Source: Alternaria dauci (taxonomy: Eukaryota > Ascomycota > Dothideomycetes > Pleosporales > Pleosporaceae). From it: a DNA stretch of 64,000 nucleotides. The translations under genes and the position numbers were made by a program. This document shows, in pieces, positions 8,301-64,000 of this stretch. The stretch is taken from the NCBI RefSeq assembly GCF_042100115.1, contig NC_091272.1, positions 2,418,001 to 2,482,000 of the forward strand. Reading direction: 5' to 3'. Numbering within the stretch: position 1 is the first letter of the stretch; each line of letters starts with the position of its first letter. Below the pieces are notes generated by a model, which was not told the origin of the DNA, ran no database searches, and worked only from the letters and a program-made list of their open reading frames with translations.

Positions 8301-9503
8301 ATGGCGTCCTCGCTCCCCGAATCTAACATCTCTCTGACATATACACAACCTTCTTCCCAACCACACCTTACGCATACACCCATACCTACGCCAGGTCCAC
8401 AGGAGGTGCTGGTCAAGATCAAAGCCGCGGCTATTAGTAAGCGTTTTTTTTGTACGAGCTGCATGTGAGACGTACACTGACTTCGTACAAAGATCCAGTA
8501 GACATCCAACTATGGGGCAATCCCGTAGTCGGCTGGCTAGCAGGTAAAAAAGAGAAGGGAATAGGACGAGACTACTCGGGAGACATCGTTGCCGTGGGAG
8601 ATGAAGTTGAAGCCAGTGGTACATGGGAGGTTGGAGACGACGTTTTCGGATTGTGCAATCGACCTGTGAGTTAATAAAGCTTTGTGGCAGGCAGGCAGAA
8701 CCAAAGCTGAATCATGATAGATGGCAGAAGGGACATTCACCCAATACCTTTGTATCAACCCGACCTCGGAACCCATCGCAAAGAAACCTAGCACTCTGTC
8801 TTACCACGAAGCCGCCGCTATACCGCTCGTTGTCTTGACCGCGCTCGCCTGTCTCGATTGGCTCCCGTCTCCATCCAACTCTCCATCCCCCTCACAACGT
8901 CGCGTCATCGTATCAGGAGCAAGCGGCGGCGTAGGAATGTGGTGTGTGCAGCTAGCAAAGAAGCTGTATTCTTGCCATGTCATCGGCATCTGCTCGGGTC
9001 CCAATGCCGACTTCGTAAGAAAACTGGGCGCAGATGAGGTGATTGACTATCGCACGCAAGACGTGCCCAAATCTCTGCTTTCCAAGCGGCCCGCTGGTAC
9101 AAAGTACGATTTGTACATTGACTGTGTGGGCGGCACGGAGATGTTCGAGCACTGGAAGCAACTCCTTCACCCTTCTGGTGCGTACATAACCATCGTTGGG
9201 GACAAAACTTCAAGGACCGCAATGGGAGGGCCGTTGACATACTTCACATACCCATCGCAGGTTATACGCCATATTCGGGGCTATCTGTTTGGTCCGCGGT
9301 ATGCAAATGTCATCCTGTACGAGAAGAGCGAGTTGCTCGAGCAGGTGAGAGAGTTGGCGGAGAAGGGCGATGTGCAAGTAGTGGTCCAGGATGTCGTCAA
9401 GGGAGTTTTGACCGAAGAGAAACATGCCGAGGCATGGGAGACGACTAAGAACTACATGGTGGAAGGACGAGTCAGGGGTAAGATTGTTGTCGACATTGCC
9501 TAA
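8301..9503 (+). CDS. Medium-chain dehydrogenase/quinone oxidoreductase-like enzyme
   Basis: Exons 8301-8436, 8493-8665 and 8721-9503, 363 aa. The N-terminal half is a GroES-like fold ([20 protein letters not shown], then [11 protein letters not shown] and VGDDVFGL). The nucleotide-binding half has [17 protein letters not shown] at about residue 165 and the [13 protein letters not shown] block typical of the NADPH-dependent quinone oxidoreductase/RTN4IP1-like branch. No catalytic zinc ligand set is present, so a zinc-independent reductase is expected. Substrate unknown; alpha,beta-unsaturated carbonyls or quinones are typical for the branch. Intron 1 belongs to the shared intron family described separately. 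Confidence 0.85.
8437..8492 (+). other. Introner-like intron, copy A (56 bp)
   Basis: Intron 1 of the oxidoreductase gene. Its 3' half carries AGACGTACACTGACTTC, identical over 17 nt to the intron at 10072-10133 and close to those at 21082-21139 and 62859-62923. TTTGTACGA near the 5' side is the exact reverse complement of TCGTACAAA next to the acceptor, so the branch site CTGAC would sit in the loop of a 9-bp stem. Confidence 0.75.
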
Positions 9504-9681
9504 GGGATTGTATCACGACTGCATACGTGTACAGGTGTCGAAGGATATCGTACAAATTTCTCTTTCACTCTCTAGTTCTTGCAGTTGCTGAATATAGCAC
9601 AAACACGCATGCGTCTTTCCATCCCGCTTCCAATACGATGGTAAGCTGCTTATTATCACACGCGATAGTCTGGCTCGTCCT

Positions 9682-10781
9682 CTATCCACTCAAACTCTGC
9701 TGGAAGAAATCTACAAGTCTGTCAAACGGAATGAGGTCGACGCGGTCGTACAAGTCCGTATGGCTGGCGCCTGGAATCCAAACCAAGTCCTTCGGTTCTG
9801 CCGCAGCGTCATACGCATCTTGGCTAAACTCACGCGAATGTGAGATGTCGCCGGAGATGAACATGACTGGACGTGGAGAGATGGTGTCAAGGTCGCTAAG
9901 GGGATAAAAGTTCATAAACTTGGTCTGACTCGAGAGCGTAGGGTGGGTGGTGAGGTTTGGCGCAGAGCCTGCAGGTGTGAACTCGCCGCGAGATGTGCGG
10001 TAGAAGTCGTAGAACTCGCGTGAAATTTCATCGGTGTCGTTGGTGAGCACATGAGGAGTTCCGCCCGTATACTTTGAGGATGGAGATATGAAGTCAGTGT
10101 ACGTCTCATGCATTTCGTGCAGTCACAACTTACCTCCGTCTGTCCACCGCTAGCCTCGACCCAACGTTGCGCCGCCGCCGTTACAATGACCTGCTTGCGT
10201 TGCTCGATGCTCTGCGATCGCTGTAGCCCGTTACGGCTCACAGCGCCCATGTCGTACATGCTGGCCGTCGCGATAGCCTTGATGCGAGGATCGATCTTTG
10301 CTGCGCTGAGGACAAAGGAGCCACTACCGCAGATCCCGATGGCTCCAATACGCTCGCGATTGATGTAGGTTTGTAGACCCAGGTAATCGACTGCAGCACT
10401 GAAGCTCTCAGCGTAGACGTCTGGCAACACGGCGTTTCTTGGCTGACCATCGCTGCCTCCCCAGTAGGAGACATCGATGGATATAGCGACGAAACCTTGC
10501 TCTGCCATCTTGGTAGCGTACAGGTTTGCACTCTGTTCCTTTACAGCTCCCATTGGATGACCGACGACTATAGCGGACGCGTTGACGCTTCGATCGAGGT
10601 TGTCGGGTAGGAAAAGGTTACCCGCCACAGTCATCTGGTATTGACTTGGAAAGGTGATTGGATGGACTGTGACGTTGTCGCTGCGGTAGAAGTTGTTGGC
10701 TCCATAAGATAAGTTCTGTGCCGCCGCTGGCAGCATCTGGAGAGCAGCCATGAGGGCTAGCGATACGAATGTGACCGTCAT
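9682..10781 (-). CDS. Secreted alpha/beta hydrolase (dienelactone-hydrolase-like)
   Basis: Exons 10781-10134 and 10071-9682 on the minus strand, 345 aa. The ATG at 10781 gives a clean signal peptide (MTVTFVSLALMAALQMLPAA); an upstream in-frame ATG at 10877 would place a basic extension before it and is less likely. The fold signals are VVGHPMGAVKEQS (oxyanion region, about residue 72), the nucleophile elbow IGICGSGSF with Cys151 in place of the usual Ser, and a late ASHTDLYD block supplying the catalytic His. A Cys nucleophile is known in dienelactone hydrolases and in this fungal secreted family. The intron (10072-10133) is required to join GGQTE to YTGGTPHVL. Substrate unknown. Confidence 0.82.
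10072..10133 (-). other. Introner-like intron, copy B (62 bp)
   Basis: Intron of the alpha/beta hydrolase gene. It starts GTAAGTTGTGACT, nearly the same as copy C (GTAAGTTGTGCCT), and contains AGACGTACACTGACTTC, identical to copy A. The acceptor is TCAAAG. A closer AG would give a 29-bp intron, which is too short to splice and would insert foreign residues before a conserved block. Confidence 0.75.
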
Positions 10782-12356
10782 TTTCGAGGCGCTTCTTCTG
10801 CAGATTGTAACTTGGATTTGTTGTGGTGGATGTGGAAGCTTGGGTGTGTGATGATCTCTTGGGTTGCGAGATAGCATTCTTATAGGTTAAGAAGCTGGTC
10901 TTTACGAGTTTGCACTGCCATAGCTTGCGTCAGCTTCATTTGAGAGAAATCGATGTTGAACCAGGATGCGGCGGACGGATTCCTCCACATCTCTCTCGCC
11001 AAGACTGGGCATGCAAGGTGATGACATGGTCATAGTGTGCATTCCAAGAAGGCAAGTCCGCCAGCCTAGAGATGTAAAGTGAGCAATGATAGGGAAACTA
11101 TGCACTATGTAGTGCTACCTTCGGATCCAAATCAATAGCAGGAATAAGTGATAACCAGGGCATATGATTGATCACGTCACATCAAGATTAAGAGATGAAA
11201 AGGCTGATACAATTACCGTCCGGTGTCATATGTTTGCAGAGGAGAAGATTGCTGTTGCTTGTTGCATATTTCTCCCTTGATGAAGTAACGTCTTGGCCCG
11301 CTGCAACCAGCTGACAGTCTTAAGTCCACCCGACGCTAAAGCGCGATGGGTTTGGTGTGACTACCAAGGTTCTGGGTTTGACCGTCTACCATGATCTCAT
11401 ACTTGTACCATCATGCTTAAGAATGAGTATTGCGTAGTTGAATTTTTCGAGGAGAGATGCGAAGGAATGTTACCATGAATCTTCCCGCGCATGGTAGCAC
11501 GTCTTTAGGAAACTGAAAGTCTTTTGAGAATTTTTACTGGAGACAAACCTCAGTACCATTTTGCGCGACTCCCGAACCAGTGGATATCGACATACTTCTG
11601 AGTGATGTACAGATGCAGGTTCTCGCATAGCTCGAGGTCCAGGAACTAGGAGGCTTTGATTATCGTCCCAAAACGTTGCAATGGCAACATCCGGCGCACA
11701 GGCGTGAGCTACGTTGCTTTTTGTCATGCCACGGTGCCATATGAGGCACCTGACCATGCTCTGTCGGTCATGAAACTGCTTGAGCTCCTATTGATTGTGT
11801 TTTTTATCTTTCGTGGTGCTTTGGAATAGCCTTCAAATTGAGGGAAGCCATCGAAGAGGCACCCAGTTTTTTCTCTTCAGGATCGCTGGGTATCTATTTT
11901 GCGGTATGAGCGACAACTGCAACAAGTTTGCAAGCTGTCAAGTGTGTGCGAACCTGCTGACGATGAGTTCAGTAGTACCAGGAAAATACAGGGCAGGCAG
12001 TCAATCCTCCCTCTATAATGATACTCTACCCAGGCAACTACGGGCGTGTTTGATTTTCCCATAAGATGTGTGGATGTCAGCCCCAGACGGTTCTAGGAGC
12101 AGACTAACGCAGGTGCATGACCAACAGTGATGACGTTGGCTGCAGGGTCCATGCTTTGCCCCAGCCTCGTCGACATGGACCGCGGCCGCTATCTGGACGC
12201 CAGCCTCAACCACTACCAGAGCTCTCCACTCCCTACCCCAATCCCAATCATCCTACCCCAACTTCGAGTCCACATCGAAGTTCTTCCTGTCGTGTTTATC
12301 GCGCGACCACAACGCTACAGCACGTCTCTAGTCTCGTAGCTGCCTTCACCGCCACC
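10782..12356. other. Intergenic region, nothing recognised
   Basis: About 1.6 kb between two divergently oriented genes, the secreted hydrolase and the NPC2-like gene, and so holding both promoters. Short open frames (for example 11470-11757 minus) show no recognisable features. Pyrimidine-rich, CACC-rich sequence lies in the last 150 bp before 12357, typical of a fungal promoter/5' UTR. Confidence 0.5.
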
Positions 12357-13012
12357 ATGCAGCTCACCACGCTCTTGCTCGCCGCGCTAAGCGCCGTCTC
12401 TGTCTCTGCATCGCCCTCATGGATGGGTGGCGACCAGGTCACGATCAAGGAAGAGTACAAGGTCCCAGGCGACAACCCCTTGTATTTCTGCGGCGACCCA
12501 GCGGACGACCTTTTGAAGATTGAGAAGGTTGACCTGAGCCCCAACCCACCCAAGCCGTACGTGACTCCTGTTGGCATTTTGTGAACATTGCGCACCTACA
12601 TGTGTGGTAGCTCTGCAAGATTTGAGAGGTGTGAAGCCAGAAACTAACCTGCGTACAGTGGCGAGACGCTCAGCATCAAGGCCACAGGCAACTTCAAAGA
12701 GGAGGTCGGTGAGGGTTTCAAGATGCACTTGCAAGTCAAGTACGGCATCATCACACTCATCAACCAGAATGCCGACGGCTGCGAAACGATAAAGAAGGGC
12801 GATCTCGAGTGCCCGCTCAAGAAGGGCGAGATGAGCTTGACCAAGGACGTTGAGCTGCCCAGGGAGATCCCTCCGGTGCGTTTGAAGAGCTTTACAAGAT
12901 ACGAATGAATACTGACCATTAGCAGGGCCAGTACACCGTTCTCGCCGACGTCTTTACCAAGGAAGGTGACAAGATTACTTGCCTCACCGCTAAGATCGCC
13001 TTCCACCGGTAA
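12357..13012 (+). CDS. NPC2: NPC2-like phosphatidylglycerol/phosphatidylinositol transfer protein (ML domain)
   Basis: Exons 12357-12556, 12659-12875 and 12926-13012, 167 aa. The signal peptide is MQLTTLLLAALSAVSVSASP. The mature part is an ML (MD-2-related lipid-recognition) domain with the fungal hallmark block YKVPGDNPLYFCG, then DLSPNPPKPGETLSIKATG, and cysteines at about 45, in DGCETI, in LECPL and in ITCLT. Length and motifs match fungal PG/PI transfer protein, the NPC2 homologue that binds sterol or phospholipid in the vacuole lumen. The first intron is long for this window (102 bp). The start has a strong context (GCCACCATGC). Confidence 0.9.
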
Positions 13013-13508
13013 ATTGCCTCACCTTAGTTCGCCGCCACAAGACACGACGAGCAGCGATAGGATCTGATGTTCATACATGTAGGGGAGATACGGAGGATAG
13101 TAACAAGGGCAGTGGTAGCAAGATCAAGTTTGGACAGCCGAGAGTGCAAATGTCTGGGCCCCTCGCCGGGCTTGTGCAGGAGCGATTAAGGCGGAGGAAC
13201 GAGCTGTAACCCGATGTTGGCGAATTGTTCTCATGTCTTGAATCACGATACCAGTGCGATGTTGGTTTTACTGTTTTGCGTGTGGGTTTGGGTTTGGACG
13301 GAGGAATGGACTATGGCTTAATGTAGACACGACGGACATGGATACTCTCTGTGGCACGATTGGCTCTCTGACTGTTTTGTGATGGATGCCATATCTGCGC
13401 ACGTTGGATGTTATATGTACACAAAACTGCCCACGTCTCCAGAGCCATGCGTAGTGTACTCGACACACGCAACTCTCTCTATGCGCTGCCAGTTCCCGCG
13501 TTCAACCC
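13013..13508. other. Convergent intergenic gap
   Basis: About 500 bp between the 3' ends of the NPC2-like gene and the V-ATPase subunit F gene. It should hold both 3' UTRs and polyadenylation signals; nothing else recognised. Confidence 0.5.
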
Positions 13509-14049
13509 CTACTCTCCGAACAGCCTCCTCACCCTCTTCAGCACACTATCCTTCTCGGGGTCGTAGGGGTGGTCTTTGGATGGTATCTCGAGCAGGGAAG
13601 GGAACGCAGCCGTGTATGTCTCGACCCGGTTTCGTATCCTCTCGGCGATCTAGCAGCAGTTAGTCGTGTCTTCCGTTGCGTGTTCGAGGCAGGTGACACG
13701 TACATGCTGATTGATGAGCAGAATCGCGATATCCTTGCGCTCGGTGGTGAAGCGGTCGAAGGCTGCTTCGATGGCCGAGGTCTCGGTCTTTGCGTCGACG
13801 ACAAGGAAGTTCTTCTGGCTGTCTGGCGGTTGGGTAACGTGCTGTGATATGCGTCAATGTCCTGTTCGTGTTGCGCGTGGCAGCAGGCAATAGCTTACGC
13901 CTACACCTGCAAGCAGCATGCCCGTGCAAGTGTCCTGCGACTGGTTAGCGCTCCTGACCCGCCAGGTGCGGACATGTCGACAAGCACACCTCGTCGCCTA
14001 TGACGGCCAGGAACTGCCTGTCCTTGTACTGTGCCGCTGGTGCTGCCAT
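13509..14049 (-). CDS. VMA7: V-type proton ATPase subunit F
   Basis: Four exons on the minus strand: 14049-13990, 13934-13899, 13841-13704 and 13649-13509, 124 aa. The joined product reads through the diagnostic subunit F blocks: [20 protein letters not shown] at the N-terminus, the FLVVDAKTE segment, [19 protein letters not shown], then [19 protein letters not shown] and the final VRRLFGE. Length equals that of fungal Vma7. Subunit F sits in the central stalk of the V1 sector and couples ATP hydrolysis to rotation in vacuolar proton pumping. The first exons are very short (20 and 12 codons), which makes this gene easy to miss. It is divergent from the Nur1-like gene, with starts 293 bp apart. 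Confidence 0.9.
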
Positions 14050-14342
14050 TGCGATATATATCCCCGTGAGGCAGCGGTCGTGAGGTCGTCGGAGCTTGGC
14101 TGCTGAAGCTGGAGCTCCCGCGCGCCGTCGTCATGGGCGGGACCAGGGCCCTAGTCCGCGTTCGGCCAACTGTTTGTACCGCCGTTTCTTTCACCACTCG
14201 CTCTTTCCGACTCGTCGCGTCTTTTCTCAACACCGCCATGCCGACCTGAGTCTCACTACTACGCCACTCTCTCTCTTTGCCTCTCCTACACAACCCAGAA
14301 CGCGACCTCGGGGACTCTAATCGTAATACACCCGGCCGAACC
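14050..14342. promoter_or_regulatory. Divergent promoter between VMA7 and the Nur1-like gene
   Basis: Only 293 bp separate the two opposed start codons, so both core promoters and 5' UTRs must lie here. The Nur1-side half has pyrimidine-rich tracts (CTCTCTCTTT around 14270) as in many fungal promoters; no TATA box seen. Confidence 0.55.
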
Positions 14343-15803
14343 ATGCCTCCTATCGTGCGCCGCGCACCGCTCTCGGAACGCATAAAGGCCTACTTTGACC
14401 TGTCCGACTGGCTCATCTGGATATCCGAAGAGCTCAACAGCTCCGACTGGGAAGACTTTGCATCGGCCTATGCGCCCTACATTGGCTTCGGCGCAAACCT
14501 GCTCTTCGTTCTCGCCCAAGCCAACAGCGGCGCATCCACGGCCTCGGACGACGATGGTGTCTTCACCGAGGTGCAGGGCCCGGGCTGGATAAAGTGGATC
14601 ATGGGCTTGCTGGTGCTGGCGCTGGGTGTGGCTAGCTTTGGCAATGCGTGGCTGGTCTGGAGCAAGAAGAGGTACTACCGTCTCTTCGAGCAGAGCGTGG
14701 ATGTTGCGCCACAGACACCCAGTGCCAAGCGCGTCAGAGTCGATTCATCGCCTGCTGCAGCAAGCCCGATGCAGTTTGTAAGGAACCTGGTGCAGAACAA
14801 CGCGGCGAGTCGGGCGCATCCTGTCGAGGGCAGAGACGTCTGGGAGGTAGCGGTTTGGGACCCAAATCCGCTATGTCTGCAGTTGTTCAGCCTGTTCAGC
14901 CCGTTGCATGTGGTGCTCTACTACTTCAATCTTCCAGTTGCTCCGTTGGATCCGAGACCGAGTGTCAGGGTGACTACGACCATCTTGATCGGAGCAGCGC
15001 TTTCGCTGCAACTTTGGTGGCTTAGGAGCTCCTTTACGCAGCAGGCCAAGGACAACTCTCTGATCAGTCGCCAAGTGCTTCACGAGTATGACAGCAAGTT
15101 CGTCCACCCCGCATTACAGAAGCCGTGTCGCGACGTTGGTATCCAGACCATTTCAAAGAACCGAAGCCGTGACTCGAGTGTCGGCGTCAAGGGGAGCAGC
15201 CACGATCTCGCGAGCTCAGTCGTCACATATACGCCAACGACCATCGTCAACCGCCGCACTTTCCGCACAAACCCAAACGCTAGCTACGCTTCACAGTACG
15301 ACCCTGACGAGATGGCTTCTCCATCCATCACTCGCTCCTTGAAGCGTAGACCCTCCCTACACCAAGACCACGGCAGCTCACAGTATGCAAGCACATCCAC
15401 AGCAACAGGTCCTGACTTCTCCTCTCCTATTCGACCATCGCAAACACCCAACCCCTTCCGTCAAGCACCTACGATCCCTAGGACCAACACTAAGCCTGCT
15501 GACGGCGGCTACCTGGGCATAAACACTCATGCCGCCTCTCCTCTACGAAAGTCGTCAGGTCTAAACTTTATAAAGGATGGCGAGAGGAGTGCGAGCCGCG
15601 GGAGGGACAGTCTAGGTGGCGCTTTTGAGCGCAGGGCTAGTCCGAGTAAGCGGGATGTCAGCCCTCTGAAGCGGATCAGTCTTGGAAACCTGAATGCCGA
15701 GAGGGAGAGGGGAGAAAAGACTTTGGGCCAGACGGGTAGTCTGGGGAGGAGTACTCAGTATGGCAGTCTTGGTGTGGGACGAAGAGAAAGCGGACGGTAC
15801 TAA
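14343..15803 (+). CDS. Nur1/Mug154-type nuclear rim protein (DUF2418)
   Basis: Single exon, 486 aa from the ATG at 14343; the frame is open further upstream but without another ATG. The N-terminal part has the family block LSERIKAYFDLSDWLIWISE and a membrane pair around WIKWIMGLLVLALGVASFG. It continues with the conserved WEVAVWDPNPLCLQLFSLFS region and a second hydrophobic stretch (VTTTILIGAALSLQLWWL). The last ~220 residues are Ser/Arg/Pro-rich and disordered. In yeasts Nur1 and Mug154 belong to inner-nuclear-membrane complexes with Heh1/Lem2 that tether rDNA or heterochromatin; the same location is inferred here. Confidence 0.8.
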   Translation: MPPIVRRAPLSERIKAYFDLSDWLIWISEELNSSDWEDFASAYAPYIGFGANLLFVLAQANSGASTASDDDGVFTEVQGPGWIKWIMGLLVLALGVASFGNAWLVWSKKRYYRLFEQSVDVAPQTPSAKRVRVDSSPAAASPMQFVRNLVQNNAASRAHPVEGRDVWEVAVWDPNPLCLQLFSLFSPLHVVLYYFNLPVAPLDPRPSVRVTTTILIGAALSLQLWWLRSSFTQQAKDNSLISRQVLHEYDSKFVHPALQKPCRDVGIQTISKNRSRDSSVGVKGSSHDLASSVVTYTPTTIVNRRTFRTNPNASYASQYDPDEMASPSITRSLKRRPSLHQDHGSSQYASTSTATGPDFSSPIRPSQTPNPFRQAPTIPRTNTKPADGGYLGINTHAASPLRKSSGLNFIKDGERSASRGRDSLGGAFERRASPSKRDVSPLKRISLGNLNAERERGEKTLGQTGSLGRSTQYGSLGVGRRESGRY

Positions 15804-17156
15804 CAGTCATATCTCGGCGACAAACGAAAGCTGGCATATGGGAGCGCTCGTGTGATGGTGAGCCGTGAGTTTGCTAAATTCGTGTACACTATATTATATC
15901 AAATACCCCAATATATGCCACCATGATGGCGTTTTTCGATTACAGAATATCGACTGCGACTATGAGGTTTCTATTTCATCTCTTAGACTTCCTGAGTCTT
16001 GGTCCATGTTTGTTCACTGTCAACAAGTCATGCAGAATTTTGTAACAATGATTGCCATCGTTCCTCCTATCGACTAGACTTTGACTCCGCCATGTTACAC
16101 CACTTGATAGGAATATGTGTCCTGCATAAGTCGCGCAATCTCTTCTCTTTCACTTGCTCTTCAGCATGGAGCAACTGCCTCCTCTCTTGCTATACCATTA
16201 CTAATGTTCATTGTGTAAAACATGACTATTGCAATCGTGTTTAGAATGCAACCATCGTGCCAAGCTAGAAGATAAAATGCCTTGGATACAGGCCTGAAGA
16301 TGGGTCAGAGAGCATAAACAAATCGACTGTTGTCCTTCACTGTAGAGATTTCTTCGTATCACATGTTTCATATGCTCTCTAACAGATAAATATCCTATTA
16401 CTAAATGTCTGCTGCAAGCTCAAGAAGTGCATAATCAAAGTCCTAAAATCAAGCTTTTTGATTTCACATTCCGATACAGGAGATTCTGCATGACTGTGAC
16501 AACTGTTTCATCATTGTCTTTACATAGAATCTTCTCCTTTGCTAATTATTATTCTTCTTCTCATTCTTCGAGACATGTATCAAACAAGGCCCAAAGATGA
16601 ATCGAGAAAAAAAAAAAGAAAATGATACTGCAAAAGAAGAACACTTACCTTGTTCCGGCCGTCACAAGCATCGGCCCGTATAACGGTTGCTCCTTCTCGG
16701 TGCTTCCGAAAAAGCTTAGTATCCAAAAGTCTTGAGGGGATCCGGTCGCTGGTCGAGCGCCGTTACAACACGTCATAGGAGTGTTGAAGATGCGCGTCTC
16801 CCGATCACATAGACCTCGGACAGGCCGTGTCGCACCGGACCACGAAAAAAATAAATGATCTCAACAAGTCAAGTGTACGCGACTCAACAGTCTGCCACGT
16901 ACCTAGGTATACCGACATATGGAAATGTTAACACTCGACGTCATAGTGTTTCAAGTTTCATGTTTTCTTGAATCGTAGCTTTCATTTCGTACCAATAGAT
17001 ATTTACAGAAAAAAGTATCCTTATCACGGGTCTGGAAAACCCATGATCCTATTGACCAAACCATGTAGCATTGCTGGTGCCATCCTTCACAATCATCTTG
17101 CTCTCCCTGAGAGTCATGTCGATTTTTTTTCATGAGCAAGCCCCTTCATTCAGCGC
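15804..17156. other. AT-rich convergent intergenic region
   Basis: About 1.35 kb between the 3' ends of the Nur1-like gene and the trypsin gene. From roughly 15850 to 16650 it is visibly more AT-rich than its surroundings and holds an A-run near 16608. An exact TACCTAGGTA palindrome lies at 16900. No coding or RNA gene recognised; a decayed repeat is possible but I see no terminal repeats. Confidence 0.5.
16900..16909. repeat. TACCTAGGTA palindromic 10-mer, copy 2
   Basis: Exact match to the palindromes at 8230 and 31550, in the gap between two convergent genes, so a promoter role is not obvious for this copy. Confidence 0.6.
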
Positions 17157-17951
17157 TTAAACAGAGTTGATGAAAGAGAGAAGGGCGGAGGTGCGAGCGT
17201 ATACACCAGGGTAGTTGGGCTGAGCACAGCCGAAACCCCAGGAAACGACACCAATGAGGGTCCTGGCGCTGTTGACAAGGGGACCGCCAGAGTCACCCTG
17301 GCAAGAGTCACGACCGCCTGCAGCTACACCGGCGCAGATCATGTTGTTGGTAATGGAAGAAGTTCCGTAAGAGGTGCGGCACGAAGCGCGGGAGACGATT
17401 GGAACGGAGACCTTGTAGAGGACGGTGGGGGCGTTGTTGCCATTCTCAGTGCGATCACCCCATCCGGCAACGGTCGAAGTTGATCCAGCAGCAGGGTCGG
17501 ATCCGGCAGCAGGGAGGGTTGCGTAGCCAATGTTGCCGCCAGCAGAAATGGGAGAAGAGAGCTTCCAGACGGCAACATCAAAGTCCTCGCCCGTGGTACG
17601 GTAGCTGGGGTGGATAGTAATGGAAGACACGGCGGAGAGTACTCCACCGGAGTTAATGTTCAAGCTGCCAGCGCGGACACGGAGACCGCTGATTGCGCCA
17701 GTGGCTGTGCTGACGGAGCAGTGAGCAGCAGTGAGGACGGTAGTAGAGTCCAATAGAGAGCCACCGCAGAAGTGGGCTCCGCTGCGCTGAATGCTGACAA
17801 TGAAAGGGAACTCGCCCGCAGAGGCAGTGGTTCCACCAACAATGCTGTCAGCGGGAGCATCCTCAGGGAATGTGTAGTCGGGGTCCTGAGGAGTGGGAGC
17901 CGCAAGGACGAGCGCAGGAAGCGCGATTGCGAAGATGGATTGGAAACGCAT
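17157..17951 (-). CDS. Secreted trypsin-type serine protease (S1)
   Basis: Single exon, 264 aa. It has a signal peptide ([20 protein letters not shown]), a short acidic propeptide, then the activation site IVGG at residues 37-40. The catalytic triad is His77 in LTAAHC, Asp125 in DFDVAVW and Ser221 in GDSGGP. Asp215, six residues before the nucleophile, is the trypsin specificity determinant, so cleavage after Arg/Lys is expected. Six cysteines in trypsin positions are visible. Highly similar trypsins (such as SNP1 of Parastagonospora nodorum) are secreted by plant-associated Pleosporales during growth on plant cell walls; that family knowledge, not the sequence, suggests a role in saprotrophic or pathogenic nutrition. 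Confidence 0.93.
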
Positions 17952-20205: not shown

Positions 20206-20391
20206 TCCGGTGTGAAGTGGTAGCATAGTCTGTGTATAGTAGCCACATGGTGATTTACATACAGAATGCTAGATAACCGGTATGAGTCATGTGTTATGGT
20301 TTGTAACAATGGCAAACACCCTGTTAACCTGATTGCAAAATCTTCGACGCCTTGACAAGTTTGTCATAGCTCATGGTACCTCCCTTGCCCG

Positions 20392-21721
20392 TTACCAATA
20401 GTTTACACCAAAGCGGACGACGCAGCCCAAATCTGCAACACCAAGACTTCTCAAAAGATCCGTGCAAAGGAGAGGCTTGGAATGCCCACCTGGCTCAACC
20501 CACTCTGACATCTGCCTCTGCTTTATTACCACATGCAGTGACGCTCCCGGAGATAGACCTGCATACAATACAACCTGTGTAATGCTCTGCTGCTTGATGT
20601 ATTTCACCCACGTGAAGCTAGTGTTGTTGATCAAGGTCGTAAGAAACTTGATGAGAGAGGCTTGAACCTCAAGCTGACCGGGTACGAAAGAGATGGTGTA
20701 GGCAGGAAATCGGTGACGGAACTTCAGGAGGGGGAGGATATCGATGTCTCTGATGCAGTCTTCCTTGACCCAAACACGGAGGGTACCAGCGGGGTCATAA
20801 TAGCTCTCGATACGTCTCCGAGTCTTGTCATCTATTTGTGAGGTCCGGCGGAGTACTGGAAAGAAGGCCTTGAAGTAACTCTCCAGCGCGAAGAGTGGGA
20901 ATCGGTGTGTAGATAGCCACAGGGGTCGAAATTCGGTACGAACGAGCGAACAAACCTGTGTCAACGCTATATAAGGAAGTGGCTTGACAACTGCTCGGAG
21001 GTCCTCGTCATGTGGTATTTGCTTTCGAAGTCTAGATCTCTTTGGCTTTCGGTGTGTCATTGGGAAGCAGCGATGGCTCCACTTTGGAGATACGAAGTCA
21101 GCGTATGTTTCACGTGTATCTCGCATAGGCACAACTTACCTCTGCTGCCATCCCATATATGCGATTTCGGAGTTCTGGCTACAGTCAGTACATCCCCAAT
21201 TCAAATCTGTACGGCAGTGACCAACCCCCTGGTAGATCCATAAATCTAAACACCTGCTCTTGATCTGCTGCCCATGTTTCCACAGGATCCTTGACCACCT
21301 CTGGCATTACTGGATCATCAACGGTGGTAGATTTTGTCTTCTGGCGTTTGGTCCGAGGCTCTAAACTACTACCCCCGGTGGCTCGCTTCGTGCCTGCACT
21401 CTTGCCTGCGGCTTTGCTGTCTACAGCCTGTACAGTCTTGGCGTGGCCTTTGAGGGTCCTACATCCAGCATGTTAGCCACTGTGATAGAAGCATAAGTGG
21501 TGACTCAAAAATACTTACATGATCAGTATGAAGGTCGTACTTGCCGGTGAAAAGTTAACGGATGGTGGGCTGATGCAGGAGAGGTCTTGTGGAAGCGAGG
21601 CCGATGTTTTGGGGTGCAAGGGCGTAGTACGTATGGTCCCTGAACCCAAATGGAAGGAGCGGTAAACGCGCGGTTGGCTTTTAGGAGCCCCACGGCTGTT
21701 GCCTGATTGCATCTGATTCAC
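20392..21721 (-). CDS. F-box-like (LPGELRNRIY motif) fungal protein
   Basis: Minus strand exons 21721-21519, 21458-21226, 21174-21140 and 21081-20392, 386 aa. The N-terminal ~120 residues are basic and Ser/Thr-rich and look disordered, with a nuclear-signal-like RTKRQKTK. The diagnostic FMDLPGELRNRIYGMA block appears only after splicing the second and third exons, which strongly supports the model. It continues with LTQVCSLVRTEFRPLW, the second hallmark of this fungal F-box-like group. The third exon is only 35 nt. Intron 3 belongs to the shared intron family. Function unknown; an adaptor in protein turnover is the family guess. Confidence 0.7.
21082..21139 (-). other. Introner-like intron, copy C (58 bp)
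   Basis: Intron 3 of the F-box-like gene. It begins GTAAGTTGTGCCT like copy B and shares the branch-site region (TACGCTGACTTCGTA) with copies A and B. GAGATAC at the 5' side is the exact reverse complement of GTATCTC near the acceptor, enclosing the branch site in a 7-bp stem-loop as in copy A. Confidence 0.72.
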
Positions 21722-27267: not shown

Positions 27268-27302
<35 letters not shown>

Positions 27303-33319: not shown

Positions 33320-33455
33320 ATACAAACCTGCAAAGAGCGTGTCCTAATAGCTCTTGGCAGGTTTGGGACAATTTTTTTTCCCGTAGCAGGTGATGGCGGT
33401 TGGTGTTTAGATTGGGATGGCGGATAGATGAGGTAAGATAAAAGGCATGGGCTTA

Positions 33456-33500: not shown

Positions 33501-33609
33501 TAATAACTTAATATAGTTAATAAGATAAGGTTATAGAGCTACTATAAATTATAATAAAATTACGTAAAGTTAGGATTATACTATATATAGGCCTATAAAA
33601 GTTTTAGCT

Positions 33610-35552: not shown

Positions 35553-35554
35553 TA

Positions 35555-52134: not shown

Positions 52135-52795
52135 TTGTGCGCTTGCAGAGCGGCGGGTGATCATATGCATAGTCTTCATTAATCTTCGTTAGTACTTTGG
52201 GCAGTTTTGTGTTATGACGGCTGGGCTATGTGGAGTAATTGATGACGTCACGGACCCTGATTGTACACAACGCATGGCATTTTATCTGGTAGTCGCAATC
52301 TTGCCGCGGAGTACACTTTGGACATGTGTTGAGCCCAAATTGTCATGATTAACCTAAGGCGGAAAAGATCAAAGCAGGGAAAACACGGGATGAACCAAAT
52401 GTGGTGGGGTTTGGAGATCATGATCGCTCCTGGCAGCATGGATCTGTCAGATCAACACGTTCACCTAAACATTGGAGAATTCCAACGCTGCAATGAAGCA
52501 AGCTCATACTGGCAAAAGTCAACACTTTGTTGCTTAGTGTTTAGCGCACGTTTTATTGAGCCGCAACGGTGTTCAAGTGTAGATTCTCAATCTAGCGGCG
52601 CGTGCCTTGGATCGCCGCTGATGCAGTGGCTTGCCGTCGCTAGTGCGTGCATGACGTAAAGGGCTATTGCGGCCCTATGCGCCTTTCTTGTTGTATGGAA
52701 GCGAATGTGCTGAAAGACCGCCCTCCTCTTTACAATCTTTGAACCTCTGGACCTCTATACCTACGCCCAACTGACGCTTTCCACTGAACGGCGAT
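52135..52795. other. Intergenic region, nothing recognised
   Basis: About 660 bp: chitin synthase 3' UTR and promoter of the DUF3292 gene. Confidence 0.5.
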
Positions 52796-54993: not shown

Positions 54994-55404
54994 TTATTTT
55001 AAACCCTTGCGTAGTGTCTGGAGGTTGAATATTGAAAGAAACGACTCAGTCGGTGCTTCTTCAGTGTCGCTGGTTCTGGATGTTATCCAACCACAAACGG
55101 ATCCGATTAGGGATTGATACGTACATATATAATAATTCTTCATTATGACCACTGGTGATTGTGACATGATGTGATTAAGGGCAACTGTTGCAATGACAAA
55201 GCCACATTGGCCAAGCATGAACATGTTTTTCTAACCATGAACCTCCTTACTCAAACGTCCTCTACAGCATAGATACCCATTGACTGTTCTCAAGAACTGC
55301 ACAAATTTCCCACGCTGATGTGGCCTCCCTTGCTTTCCATTTCACATTACTCTCCTTCCAATACTCCGAAACCATCCAAGACTTAGTGGATCGGGAAACA
55401 CACT
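54994..55404. other. Convergent intergenic gap
   Basis: About 410 bp between two 3' ends; AT-richer UTR-like sequence, nothing recognised. Confidence 0.5.
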
Positions 55405-57104
55405 CTACTCATTCATATCCATCTCGTCATCGCTATCCTCCTCTGTAGCCGCAGTGGCAGCATGTTTTTCATAGGAGTCACAAGCTTTGGCCTCGGCCAA
55501 TGCTAGCGCATGCTTCATCTGCAACTTACTACCGTTCGCCTTCAAGCCCTTGGCGCGGCACATCTTCTTGAAGTCGTTCTGACTGTACTCGTCATCCGCA
55601 TCCATAAGCGCCTGCACGAAAGTAGCCTTGTCCTCATTCCTCGGAACATCTAGACCGCGATCTTCGCAAATCTTCTTCAGATCGGGGACTGAGAGGTAGG
55701 ATCGTGGATCAGGGGTCTCGGAAGGCACCTTCTTGGTGTTGGTGCGAGTTAGAGGAACGTTCTTGTTTGTGATGGGCTTCTTGGTCTCTGGAGTTTTCTT
55801 CTGGTTCTTCAGCTGAGCATTGCGCTGGGCTTTATTATTGACGTTTTCCATAGCTCGAGCAGCACGGATCTGAGCCTGGGCAGCGCGGGTCATCGCGCGG
55901 CGAGCCTTCTCTGATTCTTTGTTAGCACGCTTGTTGGCGATATCCTCAGCCTTTTGAGCGTTCCGAAATCTGGCTTCGTCCTTGGCCTTAGCTTCAGCAG
56001 CTTCTAGGGCGTCCTGCTTGGCCTTCTCTTCGTTGCGGGTCTTCTCGCGGGTCATACGAAAGTTCTCCATTTCTGCACGACGGGCATCGGGATCGTCATC
56101 TACCTCTGTGGGAATACGAGCGGTACCTTCCATGATGGCGTTATAGCGCTCACGACAGGCGAGAGCAGAGAAGAGAGCGTCCCTATTAAGCCGGCGCATG
56201 TACTCGGAGACTTTGCGGAAGCGCCAGGCACGAATACGTTCAATTTCGTAGTTGACCTCGATGTCTGCAAGAGCATAAGCTTGAATAAGAAGTTCGTCCT
56301 AGAAGTCCGCGTTAGCTGAGTCACAAGATGGAAGTCAAGTCAGGAAGAACTTACATCGGCGTATTCCCATTCCTTGTAGCCTTCCTTCAGAAGAAAGTCG
56401 ACGTTGTCAGCCTGCGCAAGACGGATGCGCATGATGCGCGTAGAGATGGACTTCTGATCGTAGCGGATACGGCCATCCCTAGCAAGCTTATCGGCAATCT
56501 GGCGGTCACTGAAGCCTTTCTCACGCATCTGCATCATGAGTTCGTCATCAGAATCTAGCTCATGCGAGACACGCTTGTGATACGCTGGAAGACTCTCTCC
56601 TTTACGACGGTTGCGGCGACCGAAGGTACCAGGGACGCGGGAAGGCTGCTTGTAGAGGAAATCGTTATCTTCGTCTAGGATGAAGGCCTCTGCATTGTCG
56701 GTTTGAGCACCAATGATAGAACGTTGGAGGGGCTTTGGAGTCTTGGAAGAACTGCCAAGTCGGGCGCGCTTGCGCTTCTGACCATCGATGTTATCGTCAT
56801 ACTCTGGATCGTAGTCATCTGCCTCATCCTCGTCTTGAGAGATACCGAGATCGTCAAAGCCGTCGAGCTTGAAGTCGCCGTCGTCAGACTGTCTTAGGTC
56901 AGCTATGATCTGATAATCGAGTTCTTTGCTTACATCGTCAGCCGCTTGGGCAGCATCCTCAATGAGGTCGTCATCGTCGTTCAAGCCTTCCTCAAAATCG
57001 ATGTGGCCAAGCGGCTCGTCGTCTGTAAGATTGGGTCAGAAAGGGGCGTCGGCAAGGCAATCGCCAAGGTACTTACCGTCGAAAATGAGAGCGTTGTCAG
57101 TCAT
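55405..57104 (-). CDS. Nuclear protein with Myb/SANT-like and SAP-like regions
   Basis: Minus strand exons 57104-57077, 57022-56934, 56888-56355 and 56298-55405, 514 aa. The first ~120 residues are strongly acidic (DDDDLIEDAAQAADD and later). A basic QKRKRARLG follows, then a SANT/Myb-like helical block (SDDELMMQMREKGFSDRQIA then KSISTRIMRIRL). The middle is a long charged coiled-coil rich in Ala/Lys/Arg/Glu. The C-terminus has two SAP-like repeats (VPDLKKICEDRGLDVPRNED and QNDFKKMCRAKGLKANGSKL). This suggests a chromatin- or DNA-binding protein; I do not recognise a named orthologue. Intron 2 (56889-56933, 45 nt) is a multiple of three without a stop, so a retained form of 529 aa is possible. 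Confidence 0.72.
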
Positions 57105-58501
57105 GTCGTTGGTCGTAGTGCTGGGTTTCGCTGTGATATGTATAATGTTGGTGTTGTGAAATGGGTCACGGCGACTTGATTGCGACTGCGTATGATGAAG
57201 GGATGTCTTGTATCACCGCGTGGTAGTCTGTTAGGCTAACGAAAAACATGCGCGTCAGCAGGCCGTAGTCGCTGGAGGTAAAGGTAGGCAGCCAAATCGC
57301 AATTTTGTTTGGTCGATGGCTTCAATGAGACTAGCGTAGCTGTTGATAACTGACTTAAATGGTATTGACTTACTCCGGAATTGTTGGGGCGGTCAAGTGG
57401 GGTAGAAGAGAGACGGAGAAATCAAGTGAAATATCGTTTATACACCGAAGTTTTCGCCGGCAGCAACGGGATGTGCATGGTCTAAAATACCCCTCGTTGA
57501 ATAAATGTAAGAGGGAAAAGGTGGTGAACGTTCGGCTCTGGATTCTGGTAGCCGTTTTATTCGGGGCTTTGAAAAAATGCTGGCTGCCATTGTAAAGTTC
57601 CGTGAACTCCTGAAAGGTTAGATGTGATAGCTTGAGAATGAACAGGGAGCAAGCTGAAGCGAGAGATTGTCAGCGCCAATAGTCCTACCTTTCAAGCAAC
57701 ATCCATTATAAAAATTGCCTGTGACTGATATCTGTGTGTGGAATACTATTGGGCCGATGAGATGGGTGTAGCCTTAGTTCATGTAGAACACGGTATTTCT
57801 TATGAGGTAAAAGACGGTGTATTTGTCAGTTCGAAGAACAGCCTCTGCATATTAGGCCAGAATCGAAGAGCGTGTGGAAGATGACCAAAAATTGACGCTG
57901 CACGTTGTGATGAGCGAGAGAGAGAGGGGGAAGGGAATACATGTGTGCTGTCGGAATAATCCTAGCAGTATTGAGCGTAGAAATATGGAGTATCTGAGGT
58001 GCTCTGAATAAACGATGGCAATGTAGCAGAATGTCCAGCGTGAGCGGCAGAGACTTCGCTGAAGACGTGCCGTGTTGGGTTAGTGGGATAAAATGGCCAG
58101 AACTGGCAGCGTCTGAAGGCCGCAGAGAAAGGGGCGACAAATGAGTAGTTCTGGACCTGTGGGCGCTGCTTGGTTGCAACTGTAGTATCAGAGCTCGTGG
58201 TGGTTGTGAAGTTTAGGAGCTGGAGCGTCGGAGGCAGGGGGTGTGTCGCGCTTGTCGCCCCTCCAAGCGTGGCGCGAGCTCCAGAACGGCACCCCTGCCC
58301 CATGACGTAACGCCTGTAAACGCGGGACAACAATCAGGGCTTCTACCACGCCCACGACGCCATACTGAGCGCCGCCGAGCCTTGAAGATCGCCCCCAAGA
58401 GTCCCGCGTCAGATATAGGCTGAGATATTTATCTATCCTGCAAACTCCCTATTTCCAAAGCGCGACCTCTTGGTTTACCCAATCCCCGCCAAACACTCAC
58501 C
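57105..58501. other. Divergent intergenic region
   Basis: About 1.4 kb holding two promoters. A pyrimidine-rich stretch occurs shortly before 58502; nothing else recognised. Confidence 0.5.
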
Positions 58502-60071
58502 ATGGCATCCTATCTGGAGAAAATGCGCCGACAGTCAAAGCAGTTGTTCCCTCAAAACAAACAGAAACCTGGGGCGCCGCCTATAGAAGACCCTCCCAAA
58601 GTCTCGGAATCTGCCACACCCAAGGTAGAGGACGCCGCAGTCCCCAAGATCGAAGAACCCGCCGCCGGACCCAGCGGCCCCGTACCCTCCCCACCAGCAA
58701 CAACTGTCACCGATGCCGACGAGGAAGTAGGCACCGACCCCGTCCTTGATGCCGAAGACCAGAAATTTCTAGAGCGACTTGCCGCCATCGCTTCGGAGCC
58801 CGAGGGCGTTCCCCCGCCTCTCCCTCAGCGAACCGAAGTAGTCGATGGCAATGGCGAGAAGAAGGTTGGCAGAGATGCACAGACAGCGCTCCTAGACAAC
58901 GCAGACAAAGTGCCACTTCCCATGAGTCCGCCTGAGACTACTGCTGACGCTAGCGAAAAGGGCAAGGGGAAGGCTGCTGAAGGTGGGCTGGGCAGAAAGA
59001 AGAGCGTCATGTCCTACTTCCAGCTACCCAAATTTGGCAAGAAGGACGGCGAAAAGGCACCAAAGGACAAGAAGATAGTGGTCACAGAGAAGGACAGATC
59101 CCAGTTCGCAGACGACCTCCACTCTGCCGCCGAAGCCGCCAAAGCTGCCGAGCTTACCGATGCACAGAAACAGGACAAGGAGTTGACCGATATCCTGGAC
59201 CAACTCAACCTCTCAGCTGTCAACAACCGCGTCTTCAGCTTCAGCAAAGAGTCGGAAGAGCTTCTCAACAAGTTTACCCAGGTCCTCAAAGATCTCATCA
59301 ACGGAGTACCAACTGCCTACAACGACCTCGAGAAGCTCTTCACAGACTACGACAATCAGCTCAAGAAGATGTACGGCAATCTTCCTCCATTTCTACAAAA
59401 CCTGGTCAAGAGCTTGCCGGCCAAGCTTACGGCAACTCTCGGTCCAGAGTTGATGGCTGCGTCGGCGGAGAAGCCTGGCTTTGATGCACAGGCAGCTTCG
59501 GGATCCAGCAAGCCCCAGAGTAAGAGGTCTATGCTTCCTCAGGTGCCGAGTTTGAAGTCGCTGGTCTCTGCGCAAGGCGCAGTCGCGACGGCGCTGAGAA
59601 GTATTGTGAACTTCCTAAAGTTCAGGTTCCCTGCTTTGGCAACTGGAACCAACGTCATCATGAGTTTGGCAGTCTTCGGTACGTGTCTTTTGTCTGTGTC
59701 GTTCTTGAATTGAGCTAACCTAGTTAGTCCTGCTATTCGTGTTCTGGTACTGCCACAAGCGCGGTCGCGAGACCCGTCTCGAGAAGGAGCGCCTCGCTGC
59801 CGAAGAAGGACAGGTTGGGCGTATCAGCAGCGCTTCTTCCGTCAACGAGGACAACGACTCCATCTTTGGTGATCAGTCAAAGGCCAAGACAAGAGATAGC
59901 GGAAAGATAACGCCTGCTTCTCCGCCACAGGAGCCGCTTATCATAGGAGATAGCAAAGAGAAGGAAGAGCAATCTGCAGCGGTGGCTGATCTTCCCAGTG
60001 TGTCGCATCTTCCCGATCCAAAGTCGGGAGAGGTTCCCAAGACGGCCACTCCACCTCCTGACCACAAGTAG
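58502..60071 (+). CDS. Single-TM protein with a long polar N-terminus, unknown
   Basis: Exons 58502-59678 and 59728-60071, 506 aa. The first ~240 residues are Pro/Glu/Lys/Ala-rich and disordered. A helical region (LTDILDQLNLSAVNNRVFSF through FLQNLVKSLPAKL, about 225-315) is the best-ordered part and probably the conserved domain. One membrane segment, formed across the intron (VIMSLAVFGVLLFVFWYC), is followed by a basic HKRGRETRLEKERL and a polar tail. Topology suggests a tail-anchored-like or mid-anchored protein with both ends polar. I do not recognise the family; strong coding character and clean splicing make it a real gene. Confidence 0.68.
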
Positions 60072-60207
60072 TCTCTGCAACGCAGCAGCAGTGGAGACAA
60101 GGTAGTTTTTGGTTCAGATTGATATCCCCTGTGCGTATACCCTGGCTTAAAGTAATACATTAATTGAACAACACGTCACAATCAACCCTCGGACATGCCC
60201 CTACTCA

Positions 60208-61564
60208 CTAAGGCTTCCTTGCGTGTATTACCACAACCTCAAAATACGCATGTACTTTCCTCTCCTTCACTCCAGCCCTAAACTTGGCAAAGAAAACCTG
60301 AGCTTCTTCCACTGACCAGCCCATGACCTTCGTCAGCAAATACAATCCCCATCCCTCTGCTCCCTGGGTAATATGCAACAAATTCCATCTTCCCAGCTCC
60401 TTCATATGCGGATCTGCCGGCCATCCGTTGACAGGAACCTTGTACACTCTTTCCTCAACGTCGACAAATCCCGCATTACGGATATACGTCGACAGATTCC
60501 AAACTTCGTAAAATGATTTACCAAAACGCTCTGATGCTTCGTGGAAGAGGTTGCTCCACGTCGACAAGACGTGATCTTTCGTCAGTGTGCCATCGTCGGA
60601 TTTGAACTGGATGCTCATCTCCAGTTCGTGGAGGTAGCCGCCTGATTCGAGGTTGTTGTAGCATTGCGCGTAGAGTGCGGGCCAGTCGCCAATCGAGCCA
60701 TATAGGGAGCGGATGTTGATGAAGTCGAAGGGGTGCGAGTACGTCCATGGGAGGGTGACGTCATCGATTTCGAACTTGCAATTTGGAGGAGTGAACTGGG
60801 GCTGAATGGGAGAGAGGTCTACGCCGAGAATCTCAGCGCCAGGGTGTTCTGCAGATGGGGTTAGTCAGGTTGTCTGGGAGGGGTGTTTGTGAAATTGTCT
60901 CCAGTAAAGTAAGAAAGCGGAAGAGACGAACCATCGGCCATGTCCATACACCAAATGCCCGTGCCGCACCCGAGATCCAAGACCCTCTTCGGATCTTGGA
61001 CAGGCGCTAGATGTAGTTTCTGGTCGAGCAGCATAAGGAACATGTGGTGTGCAATATCCAGCTGGTCGTTCTGGACCTCGTCGTTGGGGCCCCAATAATC
61101 GTTTTCGCCCTCACGGTACTTGTGGTATCGGCGTCCATTCTCGAAGCGTCCCTTGTGGATAGACGATGCGATGGACGTTGTGTCACTAATAGCGTCATCG
61201 TCGCCTAGGGCCGAGTCTGTGTCATCTGTATTGTCCTGATAATGTCAGAAGATGCTTGATGCATTGCTGAGAAAATTCCTAATATACTTACGACTAAGAC
61301 AGTTGGATTCACGAGTTGAGCAGTTGGTGCAGGGCCTTCCACGGTTTCTGAAGGAAGTTTTATTGGGTCTATTGTTGCGACAGGTGCTTGTTCTGAATCC
61401 TCTGGCGCACCTGTCGAGGCAATAGGATCTGTCGATGGTGGAGCAGGTGCAACCGTTTCGGACTCGACGCCCGCGGAGCTGTTCCCAGACATGGGACTAT
61501 TGACTGCCGGTCCTACTGATCCGCCTTCTCTTTCCTTCTCTTTTCCTTTTTTAATGTCTGCCAT
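60208..61564 (-). CDS. SAM-dependent methyltransferase (LaeA/UMTA-like)
   Basis: Minus strand exons 61564-61292, 61235-60932 and 60848-60208, 405 aa. The first ~100 residues are low-complexity (Ser/Pro/Ala/Glu). SIASSIHKGRFENGRRYHKY and DEVQNDQLDIAHHMFLML are the typical lead-in of the fungal LaeA-like group. Motif I, VLDLGCGTGIW, is at about 176-186, followed across intron 2 by the acidic-loop block HPGAEILGVDLSPIQPQFTP. FDFINIRSLYGSIGDW, then a GWGLYLLTKVMGW stretch near the C-terminus complete the domain. The group includes regulators of secondary metabolism and velvet-complex partners as well as small-molecule methyltransferases; which applies here cannot be decided. The second intron (83 bp) uses a GTTCGT donor, weaker than the others. 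Confidence 0.82.
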
Positions 61565-62721
61565 TGTTGAGATTTGAGATCCGGCTCATCTTTGTGAATC
61601 GGGGCTGCGCGAGCAATGTTCTTTGTCGCGCCAGTGCTGCTGTACGGACTATCCGCGGCAATCAATGTCAAGGGTCAGCAGGCGCGACTGAGCCTCGATC
61701 GTGCAGCAACGGCCCGGAACGAACTGGGACGATCTTATAAGCGAGCGTATGTTTGATGCTCCAACGTCTTGCGATGACTCTCGGATGAGATTATTATACA
61801 GAAAGGAGTAGTCAAATCCAGAATGAGGGGTTTCAAAGTGAGAGGAATGCCCAGAGCGGCGGATAATACCACCAGCGAGAAACCGCCCGGGTGCAAGGAC
61901 AGCCGAAATGGCATTCTCCACAAGCTTAGAACAGAAGGGCTCTGACGCCCGAGATATTCTATCCACACATGTGTGAATGCAGGACAGAAAATGTGGCTGT
62001 GAGCCGAGATGGCGGGAGGCTCGTGCATGTTGGCCTTTCCGAGCTGCAGCACGGTTTTCGGACCGGGCATGTTTCCGCAGTGTGATCCGCTGCAGTGCAG
62101 TCTAGATGGGGGTATTCGAAGTCAATTTTGTGCTCACATGCAGTCCGTACAGATGTGCTTCCCGTCACGTCATCCGTTATGGGTGGACCGCGATAGAGCT
62201 TTGCTCTATGCACGACAAGGCTTTATCACTGCAGTGCAGCACTACGGGCGGTGATTCGCCAATTCGGCTGGTGCACTCGTTCAGCAAGGAAGCCCTGCAA
62301 AAGCAACAGCGCGACACTAGCGCAAGCAGCCCTAACGTGCCGTGGCGCTTGGAAACCACTCAGATTCTCACTACTCTTGATAAAGGGCGGACATGGGTTC
62401 TAGATGTCGTCGTGGCTTTTGCCAAAGCTGTCATTTGCCGGCGGGACGCGGCTAGATATCCGCAACTCGCGGCTCTGGCTACCATGCTGCTGCGTACTCC
62501 GCATCTTCTCTAGACAACCAGTCAATTGTTGACCGATCAATCTGACCAACCATTATCCAACATACAGGCCGCAGCGGCGCGCTCCCCGCTAGCTACATAG
62601 TGCACAAACGCCGCACGCACCTTCAGTGAGGGATACCCCACTTGTAGGAACGACTCTCATGAGACCTGTTCATCATCTGCGACCTTGAACCCTTGCCCTC
62701 TAGCTCCACTTGAGGCAAGCC
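61565..62721. other. Divergent intergenic region
   Basis: About 1.15 kb between the methyltransferase and P450 start codons. A plus-strand open frame at 62106-62513 has no recognisable features. Confidence 0.5.
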
Positions 62722-64000
62722 ATGGAGTCTATTTCGTCCGAATCAGCTCTCGACAATGTCTCACGGCGCCTGTACGCCATCGCGTTTGTCGCTGTGGCGT
62801 TCTTTGCTGTCGGCCGCATACGACAGTACTTGCGCTTGAGGCATTTCGCTGGACCCAGGTGAGATGTGTCCCTGTCCCGATTGCACGTGAGACATGGACT
62901 GACTTGGTACGCACACCTTTTAGGACGACAGGATTCTCTTGGCTGTGGCATTCCAGAGCTGTTATCGGCGGCCAATCCCCTAGGTACTACGGCGAAGTGT
63001 GTGAGAAGTACGGTGCGTGCCAGGAGTGTGGGATTGCTACATGGCCAGATGCTAATGCTCTTGCTTAGGGCCGATTGCCAGGATTGCACCCAACCACCTG
63101 ATAACTTCGGACCCTGACTTTTGGGCACGGATCAACGCGGTGCGTTCGCCTTATACAAGGTCAGCTTGGTACTACCACTGTGCTCGATTCGAGACGGGAA
63201 AGGATAATGTCTTTACGGACTGCGACAATGATAGCCATGATGCAAGGCGCAAGAAGATGACATCTGGGGTACGTGAATGATAACTTGAGTGATGAAGCTG
63301 CGCACCAGCTGCGATTACATGGTTGGGTTGGTGATTAGATTGCACACCATCTAACATGCTGCAGTACTCTGGTAAGGAGAATCCGACACTGGAGCCCTCA
63401 ATCGATCTTCATGTCAAAGAACTCGTGGACTTGGTGCACAAGTATGCGGTCTCAACAGCGTCAACGGAACAACCTAAACCGATGGATCTAGCCGAGAAGA
63501 TACCTTACTTCACGTTGGATGTTATCAGCCATGTTGGCCTAGGACAAGCATTCGGTGACCTGAAAGCCAACAAAGATCTTCAGAATTACCTAAAGTCGAG
63601 CGAAGAGGGTCTGAGAATTGGAAATACGGCCTTTGCAATGGGTATAGCCTGGCTCAGAGATACGCCTATCATCGGGCCTGCCATCAGTCCATCGGAACAG
63701 GACGCCACTGGCTTCGGTAACATGATGGCTCAAGCACGAAAGATAATCAACTCGAGGATGACAAGGTCGACTGACGACAAGTCCGATATGTTTGCGTCAT
63801 TCGTCCGCCATGGCCTCTCTGGAAACGATCTTTGTACGTGACCTGAAGGCTGTGATGTAAAATGTCTTAGCATCAGCTAACCAGTCATGCTTAGTCCAAG
63901 AGGTGTTTGAGCAGATTCTCGCTGGCTCTGACACTACGTCTGCTGCTATTCGGGCTATCTTGCTCTATGTCATGAGCCACCGGCGCGTGTATGCAAAGCT
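62722..64000 (+). CDS. Cytochrome P450 monooxygenase (5' part, truncated by window)
   Basis: Exons 62722-62858, 62924-63012, 63069-63268, 63365-63833 and 63895 to the window end. It starts with an N-terminal membrane anchor (LYAIAFVAVAFFAVGRI), then YGEVCEKYGPIARIAPNHLI, the usual beta-1 region. It continues through the B-C region with an RRKKMTSGYSGK block, and reaches the I-helix signature AGSDTTSAAIRAILLYVMSH. The PRTTGFSWLW and DPDFWARINAVRSPYTRSAWYYH segments resemble the pisatin-demethylase-like P450 group. The ExxR and heme-binding Cys region lie beyond the window. It is probably anchored in the ER; substrate unknown. Intron 1 is a member of the shared intron family. Confidence 0.88.
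62859..62923 (+). other. Introner-like intron, copy D (65 bp)
   Basis: Intron 1 of the P450 gene. Its core TGCACGTGAGACATGGACTG followed by ACTTGGTAC matches copy A (TGCATGTGAGACGTACACTG followed by ACTTCGTAC) at all but a few positions. The donor (GTGAGA) and the sequence near the acceptor differ, so this is the most diverged of the four. Confidence 0.65.

Follow-up and report, generated by a model that had tools for sequence, protein, structure and literature searches.

Introners of Alternaria alternata are described by Gozashti et al. 2022 (PMC9860276) as inserting directly and without transposon marks, and one family 1 example given there occupies positions 1639687-1639750 (64 bp). Introner-like elements (ILEs) of the Dothideomycetes Fulvia fulva, Dothistroma septosporum and Zymoseptoria tritici are the subject of Collemare et al. 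2015 (PMC4457414), while a 2012 review summarizing van der Burgt et al. 2012 (PMC3443670) states that ILEs are predicted to form a stable RNA structure. Propagating stwintrons, which yield sequence-similar introns at new positions, are described for the Hypoxylaceae and Xylariaceae (PMC12403724). We analyzed a window of 64,000 nucleotides of the Alternaria dauci genome (positions 2418001-2482000 of contig C1, in an assembly of 34,901,638 bases and 10 contigs), in which a preliminary description had noted four introns, here called A to D, that share one sequence in unrelated genes. That the four belong to a single family we consider practically assured, and the best explanation as a whole is that they are copies of an ILE, a multiplying short spliceosomal intron, a reading to which we assign a probability of about 0.85.

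Reading the sequence directly reproduced the coordinates and strands of the four introns (Table 1) and the matches reported between them. Introns A and B do share TGAGACGTACACTGACTTC exactly, over 19 identical bases rather than the 17 of the preliminary description; B and C begin with the same ten bases, GTAAGTTGTG, and also have TCTCC near the acceptor in common; and A and D align with 24 of 29 bases identical. The names given to the host genes stood in part, as Pfam supported the MDR oxidoreductase (A) and the alpha/beta hydrolase (B) and gave no support to the F-box-like protein (C) or the P450 (D). The fragment of host gene C had no Pfam match, neither of the two fragments of host gene D had one that passed the cut-off, and both labels were assigned by eye. 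The MDR protein submitted to Pfam was one residue short at the second junction. When copy A was spliced out, the open reading frame continued from AAAI into NPVD; the second intron of this gene (~8666-8720) lies outside the family, and relatives read through it.

The window was searched with a sequence-only profile built from 38 copies (model R1). Introns A to D were the top four matches (E 4e-15 to 5e-10), which is so by construction because they are among the 38 sequences of the model. The gap that separates them from the remaining window matches is informative: 19 matches were listed up to E 10, and the fifth had an E of 5e-4. No other window match scored near A to D. The intron at 1397-1446 was rejected as a family member, having 3.4 bits and an E of 4 in the same search. 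Independently of the profile, the core pattern (up to 4 mismatches) occurred 4 times in the window, whereas 100 shuffles of it, which are approximate, gave 27 occurrences in total (0.27 per window).

The family extends through the genome. A DNA search with intron B returned itself and five further places at 84-89% identity. For each pattern search the same pattern reversed served as the control. The pattern GTGAGACGTACACTGAC with up to 2 mismatches had 87 genome matches against 7 for its reverse, a 28-base pattern with up to 3 mismatches had 92 against 0, and the 19-base core with up to 3 mismatches had 295 against 15; a 33-base pattern from the 5' half of one subfamily (I) had 17 against 0, and a 35-base pattern from that of the other (II) had 3 against 0. 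The counts of 295 against 15 and 92 against 0 exclude a chance origin, and subtracting the 15 from the 295 puts the number of recognizable copies at ~280. There are thus many further family introns well above the reversed-pattern control, and since the similarity spans the full intron in at least five unrelated genes, the sharing first seen in the window is that of a dispersed intron family. An exact 19-mer occurred at two loci in viral contigs, which had the same surrounding sequence and were attributed to chance; a 22-mer had no match there.

To describe the anatomy of the family we used 96 fetched loci, of which 45 were distinct; the profile gave 63 matches in these 45. The 66 hits analyzed comprise the top 5 of the 19 window matches and 61 of the 63 from the loci, the two dropped (L001 and L007) being B and A again, and the 52 hits with at least 30 bits were called clear copies. 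Two subfamilies have a common middle around CTGAC and different arms. From donor to acceptor the commonest length is 64 nucleotides in subfamily I (17/29 hits, 17/25 clear copies) and 65 nucleotides in subfamily II (11/37 hits, 11/27 clear copies); hand correction of three acceptors (A, C and L028) changed the 65-nucleotide count from 13/37 to 11/37. The similarity is not confined to the branch site and ends at the splice sites. Across the 52 copies the information content of the exon flanks was at most 0.14 bit, except for 0.40 at position -1, where G was present in 21/25 subfamily I and 11/27 subfamily II copies (Fisher P = 0.0018). Because the flanks carry almost no shared information, the mobile unit is the intron itself. 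Fifteen comparisons gave no sign of a target-site duplication (lowest P 0.31; the two made at two bases were uninformative), and no terminal inverted repeats were seen when the consensus ends were compared by eye. The median pairwise identity among the 52 copies was 0.73 in subfamily I and 0.71 in subfamily II, and most copies are decayed. The most similar pair was 96.9% identical, and therefore spread lasted until fairly recently.

Most copies have the coding context expected of introns. When the boundaries were set to those of the family, a sense coding junction, defined as a score of 5 or more under a codon model trained on open reading frames partly from the same loci, was seen in 48 of the 52 clear copies, and retention of any of these 48 would break the frame or introduce a stop. 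Among the weaker hits 12/14 passed. A freer boundary search passed 59/66 in sense and 12/66 in antisense orientation; at 2000 random places it passed 323, with 1513 of the 2000 offering no usable GT..AG pair. Phases 0, 1 and 2 were found 14, 14 and 20 times (P = 0.47), even counts being expected for insertion blind to frame. Judging from these frames, the copies are probably spliced in vivo. The most telling example is a class II fructose-bisphosphate aldolase gene that contains five family introns (Table 1); their removal left a 300-residue stretch, residues 1-297 of which aligned gap-free with an aldolase of solved structure, two of the acceptors having been set from coding scores. A GH35 beta-galactosidase gene (L055, 1480-1617) has two family introns with an exon of ~10 nucleotides between them.

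We next compared homologues at the sites of introns A and B. A search of 5.8 billion proteins was made with only exons 1 and 2 of host gene A as the query, so that the candidates were short open frames. The search yielded 43 homologous open frames, and 37 of them continue uninterrupted across the site of intron A. In 35 of these 37 the frame runs past the end of exon 2 into residues starting with V, which matches read-through of intron 2 from its GT and indicates that these frames are unspliced at intron 2. Fifteen of the 37 are on contigs larger than 10 kb and hence represent DNA; P0243 (87% identity), for instance, lies without intron A on a contig of 115,872 bp. A single homologue, P0282, reads MSQTLTSYKD before PVDIQ at this site. 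This resembles read-through of intron A, and 24 of the 66 family hits give TLTSY when translated; the source of P0282 is therefore most likely a relative that carries a family intron at this position. As for the remaining five homologues, four start too near the site to judge and one starts downstream. Intron A, absent at its exact position in 37 of 43 frames and apparently present in one, does not look old, and these translations are best explained by a lineage-restricted gain. At site B, P0001 (88% identity, from a JGI contig of 46,303 bp) shows no gap. Gene calling in JGI metagenomes does not model introns; as this is assumed for P0001, the evidence at site B is weaker than at site A. A recent gain is accordingly indicated at site A outright and at site B on the assumption of intron-less gene calling. 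Among the matches listed for host gene B, the nearest named proteins were from Infectoriae-type Alternaria (86-87%), and A. alternata was absent among the 120 listed.

Table 1. Positions of the family introns, their host genes and related features (window coordinates, except for the aldolase gene, which is numbered within its own locus).
Feature	Position	Strand	Description
Copy A	8437..8492	+	56 nt, shortened 3' tail, acceptor AAAG, phase 1; 50.4 bits
Copy B	10072..10133	-	subfamily I, 62 nt, phase 0; 51.4 bits
Copy C	21082..21139	-	subfamily I, 58 nt, acceptor AAAG; 46.6 bits
Copy D	62859..62923	+	subfamily II, 65 nt, near host gene 5' end; 35.0 bits
Host gene A	8301..9503	+	zinc-dependent MDR oxidoreductase (Pfam)
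Host gene B	9682..10781	-	secreted-looking alpha/beta hydrolase (Pfam), 345 aa; copy B is the sole intron in the gene model
Relic, decayed candidate copy	62102..62168	-	profile match 62133-62153, 16 bits, E 5e-4; weak
Aldolase gene, L032 (G000:C1:808509-811525)	1349-2209		class II fructose-bisphosphate aldolase; five family introns (two clear, three decayed) in ~860 bp

Ordinary old introns that look alike through constrained splice motifs would explain the strong conservation of the donor, branch site and acceptor relative to most other positions. The shared sequence, however, spans the whole intron and sets A to D apart from every other match in the window, and for intron A great age is contradicted by the 37 open frames that read through its site, so that we give this explanation next to no credence. 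Duplication of genes or of segments, or gene conversion involving adjacent introns, is suggested by the short distance of ~1.6 kb between A and B with their 19 identical bases, and by short-range clustering: 5 adjacent pairs lay within 1 kb (0.39 expected) and 10 within 10 kb (3.8 expected), with no excess at 25 kb (P = 0.17). Yet the 14 close pairs were no more similar in sequence than distant pairs (P = 0.78), which leaves local copying unsupported, the two most similar copies are on separate contigs, and the exon flanks share almost nothing. These points contradict duplication or conversion for the family as a whole, though not an exchange limited to A and B, and as a general explanation we regard it as exceedingly improbable.

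For the family itself we lean towards spread through RNA. The mobile unit is the intron from GT to AG, typically 64 (I) or 65 (II) nucleotides long, carrying its donor, its branch site (CTGAC) and its acceptor; because it brings its own splice signals, an insertion can be spliced out with the protein unchanged. An excised intron may be reverse-spliced into another pre-mRNA, after which the resulting RNA may be reverse-transcribed and recombined into the genome, or may reach DNA by a similar route with an RNA template. The genome is rich in reverse transcriptase domains, with 112 RVT_1 matches, 26 of them with the same top score, which suggests a recently active retroelement behind these 26. 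Nineteen of the 26 are in frames of 1391 residues, and many other copies contain stops. An RNA route, which has been proposed for fungal introners, is favored by these domains together with the missing target-site duplications, the dominance of sense coding copies and the absence of local likeness. Two other routes would leave the family intact and replace only this step. Non-autonomous cut-and-paste DNA elements carrying splice sites are argued by Gozashti et al. (PMC9860276) to underlie most introners outside the ascomycetes, but here the unit ends at the splice sites with neither target-site duplications nor inverted repeats at the consensus ends, and nearly all clear copies (48 of 52) are coding introns in sense orientation, where such elements should also have left neutral intergenic and antisense copies; we consider this route rather improbable. 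Capture of intron DNA or complementary DNA at breaks or by template switching, with no reverse splicing, would account equally for the missing target-site duplications and could draw on the same reverse transcriptase domains. It does not lead one to expect precise placement at splice boundaries or near-constant sense orientation, and we judge it unlikely.

Several observations weigh against the ILE reading or its RNA route. The RNA intermediate is inferred. The copies are unevenly spread in a way that an RNA route alone does not predict: besides the clusters within genes, contig C1 holds 37 of the 92 matches of the 28-base pattern against 18.6 expected (P = 1e-5). The coding junction is weak in four of the 52 clear copies, and since the 45 loci were chosen mostly via a match to the core pattern, the conservation of the core is partly a result of that choice. 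At site A, P0241 (89%) and P0242 (87%) are on contigs of ~1 kb and could be RNA retaining intron 2, the case for P0282 consists of ~8 residues of read-through at the protein level only, and P0241-P0243 and P0282 were read as translations only. We also found no sign of a stable RNA fold, as the z-scores of seven sequences ranged from -1.2 to +0.9 and RNAalifold returned no pairs for an alignment without the 3' tails. A stem GTACGAA/TTCGTAC around the branch site can form in the consensus and was rejected, having no clear covariation beyond column composition. Stable folding is a reported feature of ILEs (PMC3443670) that was thus not found in the Alternaria family; we treat it as a reported property and not a defining one, and if it is taken as defining, the name is introner and not ILE.

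Some further observations concern the window and the distribution of the copies. The relic at 62102-62168 is possibly a candidate intron in the 5' untranslated region of a minus-strand gene with its first ATG near 61564. It lies ~540 nucleotides upstream of a minus-strand open reading frame that, by eye, has the look of a LaeA-type methyltransferase. Along C1, the stretch from 0.5 to 4.6 Mb, picked after inspection of the data, contains 34 of the 92 matches of the 28-base pattern, and the last 2.4 Mb only 3. The Bem1 protein encoded in the window is 95-96% identical to those of A. burnsii, A. alternata and A. tenuissima and 94-97% to six metagenome proteins; the values are 82-90% across the other named Pleosporaceae noted, with 82-86% for Infectoriae-type Alternaria and 87% for Bipolaris and Pyrenophora. 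Together with the matches of host gene B, these values place the window in an Alternaria species near section Alternaria. The locus L097 (G000:C4, ~936318-936671) encodes an Alt a 1-family protein that looks clearly different from the canonical allergen.

Among the described systems that come close to the family are the family 1 introners of A. alternata, which belong to the same genus and, as described in PMC9860276, have no target-site duplications and no terminal inverted repeats, as here. The 64 bp of the example given there is also the commonest length of subfamily I, the likeness being one of length and description, not of sequence. The window family may be the A. alternata family already catalogued. 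It resembles the ILEs of the Dothideomycetes, as presented in PMC4457414, in that many unrelated genes hold similar introns, a species has several families, gains are recent, copies decay until they approach ordinary introns, and one gene can hold multiple insertions; its closest pair is 96.9% identical, against 99% in F. fulva and 98% in Z. tritici for the ILEs described there. Stwintrons, in the account of PMC12403724, are nested twin introns, whereas the Alternaria copies are single canonical introns; both spread in ascomycetes. The kind of element and the presence of introners in Alternaria are already in print, and nothing is overturned; the two subfamilies and the comparison at site A come from the present analysis.

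The family bears on the old question of the source of new introns. One conjecture, a long shot, is that it acts as a parasite at the RNA level that needs the common core of ~35 nucleotides around the branch site in order to move, with two subfamilies that differ in their 5' and 3' arms and in target preference, and that a noticeable share of Alternaria introns, the five in one aldolase gene included, could derive from it. The family offers ~280 countable copies in a 10-contig assembly, two subfamilies, copies of mixed age and one or more sites at which close relatives differ. Because ascomycete introners, as described in PMC9860276, are without the transposon marks of most other lineages, this would make the family a convenient system for studying how ascomycete introners insert.

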